Assembly (NCBI GenBank): GCA_944376695.1
Contig: CALWDM010000011.1
Coordinates: forward strand, 1 to 48,981
DNA length: 48,981 nt
DNA from: an uncultured Mediterraneibacter sp.
Lineage (GTDB): Bacteria > Bacillota > Clostridia > Lachnospirales > Lachnospiraceae
Reading direction: 5' to 3'
Positions 35,943 through 38,260 of the stretch are shown piece by piece. Each line of letters starts with the position of its first letter. The first letter of the stretch is position 1. The translations under genes and the position numbers were made by a program. Under the pieces are notes generated by a model that was given only the letters and a program-made list of their open reading frames with translations, made no database searches and was not told the DNA's origin.

Positions 35943-36131
35943 TTACTGTTCCTGCTTCTTCTTTTTCGTCACCAGTCCCCCTATTCTCCCTGTCTCTTTC
36001 GAGGTCAGCGACTTCCACCCCTGGGACAGCACCTTATCCAGAAGCCCTAACTCCTCCGCCACTTCATACTTCAGTTTTTCCTCCGGTTCCAGATTCTTAA
36101 GATCTATCGGTTTTTCCTTCTTCTTACTCAT
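35943..36131 (-). CDS. small acid-soluble spore protein, alpha/beta type
   Basis: A 62-residue basic protein. KYEVAEELGLLDKVLSQGWKSLTSKETGRIGGLVTKKKK matches the alpha/beta SASP pattern: a protease-cleavage region around YEVA, the G-W-x-LT-x-x-x-G-x-x-GG DNA-binding helix and a basic tail. These proteins coat and protect DNA in dormant spores. The N-terminus is unusually charged and truncated compared with Bacillus SspA-like proteins. GGAAGGA precedes the ATG by 6 bases, and a forespore sigma-factor-like promoter lies upstream. It borders a gene-free inverted-repeat region. Confidence 0.85.
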   Translation of the reverse strand: MSKKKEKPIDLKNLEPEEKLKYEVAEELGLLDKVLSQGWKSLTSKETGRIGGLVTKKKKQEQ

Positions 36132-36193: not shown

Positions 36194-36202
36194 AAATCTG
36201 TA

Positions 36203-36540
36203 TTTGTAGGGGCCTGTGATTGAGTAAAACGTCCGAAAACAGTGAAGCGCGGTTATAGAAGACGTATTCAGCGCGGGGATATGGCTGGCATCGGCTCCGC
36301 TCTATGAGGCAGGAAAAACTACGAAATCCGGAACTATGCTAAATACAGAAATCAGCAGGCGGCAACTCGCCTTCGGCTCAGACAATCCACCTGCTGATTT
36401 CAACGCATAGTCCCGGATTTCTACTTTTTCCAGGCCTCATTCCGAAGTCGCCTCAACCACCCATATCCCCGCGCTGAATTGGTTCGAAAAGGCGCTTCGC
36501 TGTTTTCTGGTTTTGCTCAAGACGGAAGGCCCCCGACAAA
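36203..36540. repeat. 338-bp imperfect hairpin (long inverted repeat, hairpin A)
   Basis: The two halves pair over almost their whole length around a centre at about 36374. Matching blocks, left with right: 36203-36214 with 36528-36540; 36220-36230 with 36510-36520 (10/11); 36235-36250 with 36492-36507 (15/16); TTCAGCGCGGGGATATGG 36267-36284 with 36461-36478 (18/18); 36303-36322 with 36422-36441; 36323-36339 with 36405-36421 (16/17); 36349-36359 with 36390-36400 (11/11). The tip holds GCC-TTC-GGC. Some differences are G-U compatible. No convincing ORF crosses it. Either a MITE-like element or a large structured RNA; the strand is undecided. Confidence 0.92.
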
Positions 36541-36552
36541 TGCTGCGTTTAA

Positions 36553-36644
36553 AAACGTAACGAGAAGGGAACTTTCCCGGCAAAAGATAAAACTACTCTG
36601 GTCAGGAGAAACTTACAACGAAGAGGATTTTCCAGCTAAAAGAT
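36553..36644. repeat. two diverged direct repeats between hairpins A and B
   Basis: On the minus strand, the segments starting at about 36644 and 36590 both read TTATCTTTT, then a GC-rich GG-GAAA-T-CC-CTTC block, then CGTT and TTT. They are about 38 bases long with a 54-base period. The rest of 36545-36800 has short stems (GGGAACTTTCCC, AGAGG/CCTCT, GGAAG/CTTCC) but no supportable gene. Confidence 0.55.
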
Positions 36645-36800
36645 AACCTTCCCCCAGCTGGCAGAATTCTATCACAAGAGAGGCGAAGCTTGCTGGGCCA
36701 AATCGAACGGCTAACCCTCTCCCGGAAGTCCGCGTCACCTTCCGTCCGATAAAAATTCCTGTTTCGCCACAGAAGCTCCCCTTTCACCCACCTTTCGAAT

Positions 36801-36909
36801 CCCGCATTTGCCTGCGGGGACCTTCCGATCGGATGAACCCAGAAAACCGGCCCCCATCACATCGACGGTTTTCGGACGTCACATTCACAAAGAAGGCTCC
36901 CCCGCAAAT
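36801..36909. repeat. second related hairpin (hairpin B) downstream of glmM
   Basis: Bounded by the same ~50-bp module as hairpin A: 36801-36850 in the orientation of hairpin A's left end, and 36868-36909 in the opposite orientation. GTTTTCGGACGT (36868-36879) is a perfect inverted match to ACGTCCGAAAAC at 36229-36240 in hairpin A. Internal stems: CCCGCA-TTTGCC-TGCGGG (36801-36818) and GAAAACCG/CGGTTTTC around 36842-36874. It ends 7 bases before the glmM stop codon and may help end glmM transcription. Confidence 0.75.
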
Positions 36910-36916
36910 CCAGATT

Positions 36917-38260
36917 TTACTCTGTCAGGCCTTCCGCCTCGATGACTTCTGCCACGCTGTCTACGTATTTCGCGCAGATCTCATCTGACGCTGCCTCGAC
37001 CATGACGCGGATCACCGGCTCTGTGCCGCTCTCGCGCACGAGGATGCGCCCGTCGCTTCCGAGCTCGTCTGCCACCTTCTGCACCGCTGCCTGCACTGCC
37101 GGATTTTCCCTTGCGGTCTTTTTATCTTTCACGCGGACATTTTTCAAAAGCTGCGGGAAGATCTTTACTTCATCCGCCAGCTTGCCGAGAGTCTGCTTCT
37201 TCTCCAGGATGACTTCCATGAGCATCAGGGAAGTCAGGATGCCGTCGCCTGTCCTCGCGTGTTTGCTGAAGATGATATGTCCGGACTGCTCGCCGCCGAG
37301 CACGAATCCGTTCTTCAGCATGTTTTCGTATACGTACTTATCGCCGACTGCCGTCTGCTCATATTTCATTCCGATCTTATCGCATGCCTTGTAGAGTCCC
37401 AGGTTTGACATCACTGTTGTGACGATCGTGTTGCCCTCCAGGCGTCCCTGCTCCATGAGATATTTGCCGCACACATACATGATACGGTCGCCGTCCACGA
37501 CGTTCCCGTTCTCATCTACCGCGATACACCGGTCTGCGTCTCCGTCATAGGCGAATCCAACATCCAGCTTTTTCTCTTTCACAAACTCCTGCAGAATATG
37601 GATATGGGTGGAGCCGCAGTCCGTATTGATATTTGTGCCGTCCGGCTCGTTATTGATCACATAGGTCTTTGCTCCCAGCGCGTCAAACACGCTCTTCGCG
37701 ATAGCGAAAGAGCTTCCGTTCGCACAGTCAAGCCCGATCCTCATGTCTTTAAAAGACCTTGTGGCCAGGGAGATCAGATGCCCGATATAGCGGTTTCTCC
37801 CTGCTGCATAATCCACGGTGCGCCCGATCTTCTCTTTTGTGGCAAGGGGGAGTTCTTCTGTCTCGCCGTCAATGTATGCCTCGATCTTCTCCTCGACCTC
37901 TGCCTCCATCTTATGCCCTGCACTGTTGATCACTTTGATCCCGTTGTCATAGAACGGATTGTGGCTTGCAGAGATCATGATCCCGCAGTCAAAATCTTCT
38001 GTCCTTACAACATAGGAAACACTGGGTGTTGTAGTAACGTGGAGAAGGTACGCGTCCGCTCCGGAAGCTGTCAGTCCTGCCGCCAGCGCATACTCAAACA
38101 TATAGCTGCTCCTTCTCGTATCCTTGCCGATCACGACTCTCGCCTTGTGATCCTGCCCGAAATACCATCCCAGATAGCGTCCCACTTTAAATGCGTGCTC
38201 CACTGTCAGGACGACATTCGCCTCGCCGCGGAAACCGTCTGTCCCAAAATATTTACCCAT
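36917..38260 (-). CDS. glmM: phosphoglucosamine mutase
   Basis: A 447-residue alpha-D-phosphohexomutase that converts glucosamine-6-phosphate to glucosamine-1-phosphate for UDP-GlcNAc and peptidoglycan synthesis. The start MGKYFGTDGFRGEAN is the GlmM hallmark. The phosphoserine loop is ISASHNPFYDNGIK with Ser99, magnesium is bound by FAYDGDADRC, the sugar loop is GEQSGHII, and the phosphate-binding loop is RESGTEPVIRVMVEA near the C-terminus. AGAGGT precedes the ATG by 8 bases. Downstream lies the 785-bp inverted-repeat region rather than a gene. No glmS is in the window. Confidence 0.97.
   Translation of the reverse strand: MGKYFGTDGFRGEANVVLTVEHAFKVGRYLGWYFGQDHKARVVIGKDTRRSSYMFEYALAAGLTASGADAYLLHVTTTPSVSYVVRTEDFDCGIMISASHNPFYDNGIKVINSAGHKMEAEVEEKIEAYIDGETEELPLATKEKIGRTVDYAAGRNRYIGHLISLATRSFKDMRIGLDCANGSSFAIAKSVFDALGAKTYVINNEPDGTNINTDCGSTHIHILQEFVKEKKLDVGFAYDGDADRCIAVDENGNVVDGDRIMYVCGKYLMEQGRLEGNTIVTTVMSNLGLYKACDKIGMKYEQTAVGDKYVYENMLKNGFVLGGEQSGHIIFSKHARTGDGILTSLMLMEVILEKKQTLGKLADEVKIFPQLLKNVRVKDKKTARENPAVQAAVQKVADELGSDGRILVRESGTEPVIRVMVEAASDEICAKYVDSVAEVIEAEGLTE

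Follow-up and report, generated by a model that had tools for sequence, protein, structure and literature searches.

The window, by which we mean the whole stretch of DNA analysed (48,981 nucleotides), carries beside the 3' end of glmM one damaged member (L001) of a dispersed non-coding repeat. The parts of this copy and the genes on either side of it are given in Table 1. Since the small ORF on the other side starts at some distance from the repeat, the left end of the copy meets no converging gene.

Table 1. Repeat copy of the window, its component parts and the adjacent genes
Feature	Position	Strand	Basis
Complete extent of the repeat copy, between its outer ends (720 bp)	36196..36915	+	Alignment to full copies L002 and L012; ends listed
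Hairpin 1, imperfect palindrome of ~345 bp	36196..36546	+	Fold z-score -12.95; 34-sequence alignment, covariation
Left outer terminal module (ATCTGTATTTG ... ACGTCCGAAAAC)	36196..36240	+	Listing of ends
Hairpin-1 tip AACTCGCCTTCGGCTCAGACAA, conserved loop common to other phyla	36364..36385	+	Tip pattern searches
Inner end module closing hairpin 1 (GCATTTG ... CCAGAAAAC)	36508..36546	-	Module comparison
Spacer between the two hairpins	36547..36800	.	Alignment to L002 and L012
Hairpin 2 remnant; lacks the ~240-bp core and the tip within it, lost between about 36855 and 36865	36801..36915	.	Alignment to L002
Right outer terminal module, inverted	36865..36915	-	Listing of ends, alignment to L002
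glmM; TAA stop at 36917-36919, one base from the repeat end	36917..38260	-	ORF list, reading of flanks
Small ORF, labelled spore protein in the earlier note only; starts 64 bp beyond the left end of the repeat	35943..36131	-	ORF list

The earlier note on this DNA had described a 338-bp sequence folding back on itself, and this structure is real: hairpin 1 pairs over nearly its full length, and its predicted DNA folding energy (-96.9 kcal/mol) was reached by none of 100 shuffled sequences (mean -47.29, sd 3.83). The absence of a supportable ORF was likewise borne out, as the ORF list gives none above 61 aa inside the repeat. The limits proposed for the region (36203-36909) proved too narrow, judging from the alignment to full copies and the listing of ends. 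All four of the end modules reported are present in alternating orientation, with the qualification that CGTCCGAAAAC occurs only in the two outer and CCAGAAAAC in the two inner modules. The second hairpin with shared ends turned out to be a deletion remnant: the end modules are there, and the core is gone. The alignment with the full copy L002 covers its positions 1-663 and then 904-954, so that ~240 bp are jumped over 10 bp of window sequence, which explains why the copy measures only 720 bp; the tip search found no hairpin-2 tip in the window.

A blastn search with the 36203-36909 fragment against its own genome (G000; a 2.67 Mb draft in 103 contigs) gave 85 matches, some of which are different parts of a single copy, such as its two arms. 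Among 41 genomes searched for the element, 11, including this one, had a match, and all 11 belong to the same genus. The BLASTN comparison suggested in the earlier note as a sign of a mobile element thus returned dispersed copies, and not the target-site duplications: a direct repeat of at least 5 bp was found in 1 of 22 two-ended copies, compared with 3.7% in a control of mismatched loci. Three full copies between outer ATCTG ends were measured (L002, 954 bp; L005, 952 bp; L012, 898 bp). The full unit is composed of hairpin 1, a spacer and hairpin 2, with tips pointing in opposite directions, and is bounded by inverted ends. Single-hairpin copies also occur, with hairpin 1 alone (L014, L017 and L020) or hairpin 2 alone (L060). 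The 16 hairpin-2 tips of the genome are a variant of the hairpin-1 tip on the other strand, and the two tips are mutually inverted in all nine copies in which both were found. The 22 copies with both ends span 156-954 bp, except for one of 2516 bp, which is split by an insertion sequence.

The ends ATCTG-ATTTG are common to the copies and mostly read AAATCTG at the outer side; a GTAG or CGTC tag is absent from the terminus, although the window copy has CGTC some 35 bp inward from its outer ends. Most copies in this genome lie between convergent or unidirectional genes. Many contigs of the draft stop at or near a copy (L003, L004, L006, L008, L010, L023, L026, L053, L055, L056 and L058), and the true copy number is therefore likely to be higher. 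The only transposase gene met between element halves in this draft is that of the split copy (L049, 1929-3548; contig C4), which encodes an IS110-family protein of 406 aa (NF033542, 209.6 bits) and has element halves on both sides. The 1.6-kb insert of this copy was considered as an autonomous element and rejected because of its IS110-type gene, which we read as a later insertion. The literature search, which covered titles and the starts of abstracts, mostly outside the subscription journals, found no account of this repeat family, which is weak evidence.

The ends of the repeats are closely associated with stop codons. Of 54 distinct outer ends in the window's own genome, one had too little flanking sequence and five had no ORF of at least 100 aa, which left 48 usable ends. 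A stop codon was located at an offset of -3 to +1 from ATCTG in 40 of them (offset 0 in 26), and all three types were represented (TAA 31, TGA 5 and TAG 4). A uniform spread over the 196 allowed positions would place about one end in this interval (tail probability 5.7e-56, to be taken as a guide only, the ends being not fully independent). The left end of the window copy is among the eight misfits. Six copies rest on convergent stops with both ends by the strict rule, four more (L009, L017, L020 and L049) look alike when their flanks are read, and some copies occupy all of the space separating two convergent genes. The proteins encoded on either side appear to be full-length; we take them to include homologs of FtsH, ClpX, AroB, GlgD, HtpG and SpoIVA. 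A reading frame has no meaning at the level of DNA, and still the repeats come to within a few bases of stops of all three types, some copies with both of their ends; an explanation of this lock would show how repeats settle harmlessly in gene-dense genomes.

In other genomes of the genus (G046, G002, G010, G014, G042 and G043) the distance between the left stop and the tip is often 176-191 nt, including cases in which the end sequence is not the same; G012 and G015 have shorter, less regular hairpins, and for several G042 copies no long ORF was met at the position of the left stop. A different tip variant, AACTCGCTGCCGCTTCAGACAG, is present in three places in G008, and in the two that were read (L242 and L258) the stop lies 175-176 nt from the tip. 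The hairpins of Polaromonas and other groups are mostly situated 100-300 bp from the stop of the nearest long ORF, a rule that sometimes took spurious ORFs ending inside the motif; the stop lock is therefore not general.

Two gene ends were compared by eye or by reading across relatives. An element or a variant of one starts at the stop codon of glmM in G000, G046, G014, G002, G042, G043 and others. Ordinary terminators take this place in G006, G016 and G021, where the convergent gene opposite looks to be the one also present in G002 and G042. The SpoIVA C-terminus, GG(M/L)(V/I)C(I/F)II*, is kept in all 28 loci read. Within one base of its stop, ATCTGGATTTG was found in G000 (TAG), G046 (TGA), G010 (TAA; a short remnant of the element) and G014 (TAA), related ends are present in G020 and G022, and none is visible in most of the other loci. 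As the last residues are constant with or without the element, the protein is unaltered by it at these two gene ends.

The tip of the hairpin is the part with the widest distribution. The pattern AACTCGNNNNNGNCTCAGACAR (up to two mismatches) occurs at 25 places in the window's own genome (12 forward and 13 reverse), compared with none for the reversed control, and with up to one mismatch it was detected in 17 of 31 genus genomes; the tip also occurs in isolate genomes such as that of M. catenae SW178. A stricter pattern retrieved at least 117 stretches from the collection of named genomes, where about two would be expected by chance according to our own arithmetic. Among the matches listed, those beyond Mediterraneibacter come from Polaromonas, Noviherbaspirillum, Undibacterium, Variovorax, Dechloromonas, Desulfuromonadales, Chitinivibrionales, Bacteroidales, Parabacteroides and a few other Clostridia drafts. 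The exact pattern was missing from all 65 further genomes sampled in the order to which the window belongs, but it is carried by one Lachnospiraceae draft (L213), so the distribution is patchy. The 22-nt loop is the same across groups and the stems are different. The mini-stem covaries (GCC/GGC, GGC/GCC and GAC/GTC), and the triloop of the minus strand is often GNA closed by C-G, although not strictly, since some copies have AAA. A GNA triloop closed by C-G is an unusually stable DNA mini-hairpin. Three Noviherbaspirillum loci (L168, L172 and L191) have two tips 265-398 bp apart in opposite orientation, like hairpins 1 and 2 of Mediterraneibacter. The motif is also present in six stretches of viral contigs (L271-L276).

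Copies were further compared for identity, with 14 of 92 hairpins left out because of their short flanks. Elements that distant species share at a gene end are 0.71-0.82 identical, a comparison in which some of the shared-end pairs had peptide scores below 250 and might be spurious, whereas the listed copies of G000, G002, G015 and G046 have a best paralogue at 0.88-0.95. For the close pair G000/G046, two shared ends gave 0.90 and 0.94, in agreement with vertical descent. The within-genome means of G000 (0.84), G002 (0.85), G042 (0.83) and G046 (0.87) are above most of the means between genomes (0.71-0.80), which is not so for G010 (0.77) and G012 (0.76). The best paralogues in G010, G012 and G014 reach only 0.78-0.86, and the copies within these genomes are no more alike than those of different genomes. 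These values imply that, in some genomes only, copies have been turned over by inter-locus copying or repeated re-insertion, and the data for G010, G012 and G014 argue against a general concerted evolution.

The pairing of the arms bears on whether the element acts as DNA or as RNA. In the latter case it would belong to a large structured RNA or 3'UTR family, transcribed with the upstream gene, folding to regulate termination, stability or stop reading, and the covariation would reflect selection on the RNA. The position directly 3' of stop codons suits such an RNA, as does the strength of the covariation: in an alignment of 34 hairpin-1 sequences (35 of 92 were chosen by hand and one was skipped for its length), double changes that preserve pairing were seen at 52 of the 55 predicted pairs. 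The covariation check advised in the earlier note was thus positive as to compensatory changes, though not at a single syntenic locus, and the mismatches do not follow the RNA expectation, since the pair cells comprise 1657 Watson-Crick, 58 G-T, 75 A-C and 64 other combinations. Selection on RNA would favour G-U over A-C, and the structure prediction itself allowed G-U, so this test leans towards RNA and still reveals no preference for it. When mismatches were counted by genome (73 of 92 hairpins kept; only mismatches flanked by Watson-Crick pairs), no strand bias was seen inside the helices of G000 (55 G-T and 46 A-C), G046 (42 and 33), G010 (17 and 18) and G014 (6 and 5), which sum to 120 and 102, though A-C leads in every genome when all mismatches are counted. 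A-C exceeded G-T inside the helices of G002 (15 G-T and 33 A-C), G012 (31 and 57), G007 (1 and 10), G013 (2 and 9) and G042 (29 and 42), and in the total of all genomes (206 G-T vs. 268 A-C; p = 0.005 if independent, which related copies are not). In the species of the window these counts are better read as upkeep of the arms at the DNA level, while in several other species of the genus a role of a minus-strand RNA is possible, an A-C mismatch on the tip strand being G-U on the minus strand. No single transcript strand is obvious, because the flanking genes often converge on the element and, when both are read, would transcribe its opposite strands, and a simple scan found no promoter-like site. 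Rfam searches matched only a tRNA in the window; the 15 loci taken from tip-bearing genomes gave five hits (RNase P, one cobalamin riboswitch and three tRNAs), and no family for the tip hairpin came above the gathering score. The riboswitch match (L171, 5531-5732, other strand) may lie over, beside or away from the tip match of this Desulfuromonadales locus, which is at 2445-2466 in a different coordinate system. On balance we regard an RNA family as unlikely.

The alternatives in which the element is mobile DNA differ in the enzyme involved. A classical MITE, moved in trans by a DDE transposase acting on the inverted ends, would account for these shared ends and for dispersed copies below 1 kb. 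It is nonetheless improbable given the lack of target-site duplications and the IS110 type of the sole transposase found between element halves; random insertion would moreover leave the stop contact at both ends unexplained. The earlier note had offered a nested MITE-type family or a structured RNA, and of this the dispersed copies and shared inverted ends stand, whereas the target duplications of a MITE are lacking and an RNA is unsupported in the window's species. Decayed coding sequence or an assembly artefact, to which the many draft contigs ending at or near copies might point, is hardly conceivable: the element lacks ORF support, its tip occurs in isolates as well as in more than half of the genus genomes, and its pairing is kept in the 34 aligned sequences, so that the relatives refute it. 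A third possibility is REP-like elements moved by RAYT (a Y1 HUH transposase) that recognises the folded single-stranded tip. RAYT-like genes (~270 aa; L277 2062 and L281 2129, with orthologues) occupy two chromosomal positions that are constant across the genus. The neighbour at one place is presumably a transketolase gene, and the other is flanked by genes that we take to encode a glycyl-tRNA synthetase and an aminopeptidase. By our reading, RAYT-like genes are present in 14 of 17 tip-positive and also in 6 of 14 tip-negative genus genomes (Fisher p = 0.031); in the tip-bearing G008 and G012 none was found, and G005 yielded no more than a fragment. Two of the proteins were tested against NF047646 and scored 69.1 and 67.1 bits, short of its cut-off of 80. 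Among 21 tip-bearing genomes of other groups, 16 have a Y1_Tnp match and 5 do not. An element lies alongside none of 15 Y1 loci of the genus (14 of them RAYT-like) and none of 30 Y1 loci of other groups. GTAG termini of REPs are reported often to provide a TAG stop codon (PMC3733652), which would fit the stop contact, but the terminal GTAG tag is absent here. RAYT enzymes are the best known candidates, yet their usual signs fail; with a weak correlation and no elements beside the genes, RAYT was set aside as the driver, and we hold this explanation to be rather doubtful.

We therefore consider it probable that the region is a copy of a family of dispersed, non-coding, REP/BIME-like palindromes, with units of 156-954 bp, which spreads and is overwritten as DNA. 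Such copies would be selfish or tolerated palindromes that overwrite each other, either through the transposition of a folded strand, the tip of which some enzyme would recognise, or by gene conversion combined with template switching. The stop lock could arise by a ratchet, in which each overwriting may shorten the spacer and not the gene, selection against coding loss leaving the ends at rest on stops. A resident copy probably acts in bidirectional transcription termination or in protection of the 3' end of mRNA, and thus probably as the terminator whose place it took; set against a terminator role is a simple site scan, which returned 2 sites where 1.5 are expected by chance. More tentatively, the tip (TTGTCTGAG-NC-GNA-GN-CGAGTT on the minus strand) might be a cross-phylum folded-DNA recognition element of one enzyme system, which would copy hairpins with unrelated stems and, in Mediterraneibacter, place or trim them at stops; this would be a class of mobile palindromes distinct from REP/RAYT. 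With a 22-nt tip set in unrelated stems and strong covariation at the DNA level, a search for the recognition protein is directly testable.

Several known systems resemble the element in part. Bacterial MITEs (RUP, BOX, Correia and bcr1) are short non-coding elements, several of them with inverted ends. The element shares both of these traits and is unlike them in having no target-site duplication, in being bound to stop codons and in that its hairpins are nested and have a fixed tip. Bidirectional intrinsic terminators sit between convergent genes, the same place as the element, which at glmM stands where relatives have one; unlike them, it is much larger and its sequence is repeated genome-wide. 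In quasipalindromes, the arms are reported to be made more alike by DNA-level copying through template switching (PMC7202029, PMC8604942), and the arms of the element appear to be kept alike in a similar way, although it forms a dispersed family with a conserved asymmetric tip. REPs, as described, measure 20-40 bp and carry a GTAG or CGTC tag at one end (PMC3733652). Like REPs and BIMEs as portrayed there, the elements are multicopy extragenic palindromes, mostly between convergent or co-directional genes and often in inverted pairs; unlike REPs, they have far larger units and a different conserved tip, lack the terminal tag and contact TAA, TGA and TAG alike, and no RAYT gene flanked by the repeats was seen at the Y1 loci inspected. 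Owing to the misfits in size, tag and RAYT flanking, the element was filed as REP-like and not as REP. Our verdict is that REP/BIME is the closest known kind, and that the element is an oversized REP/BIME-like palindrome with a stop-codon lock.
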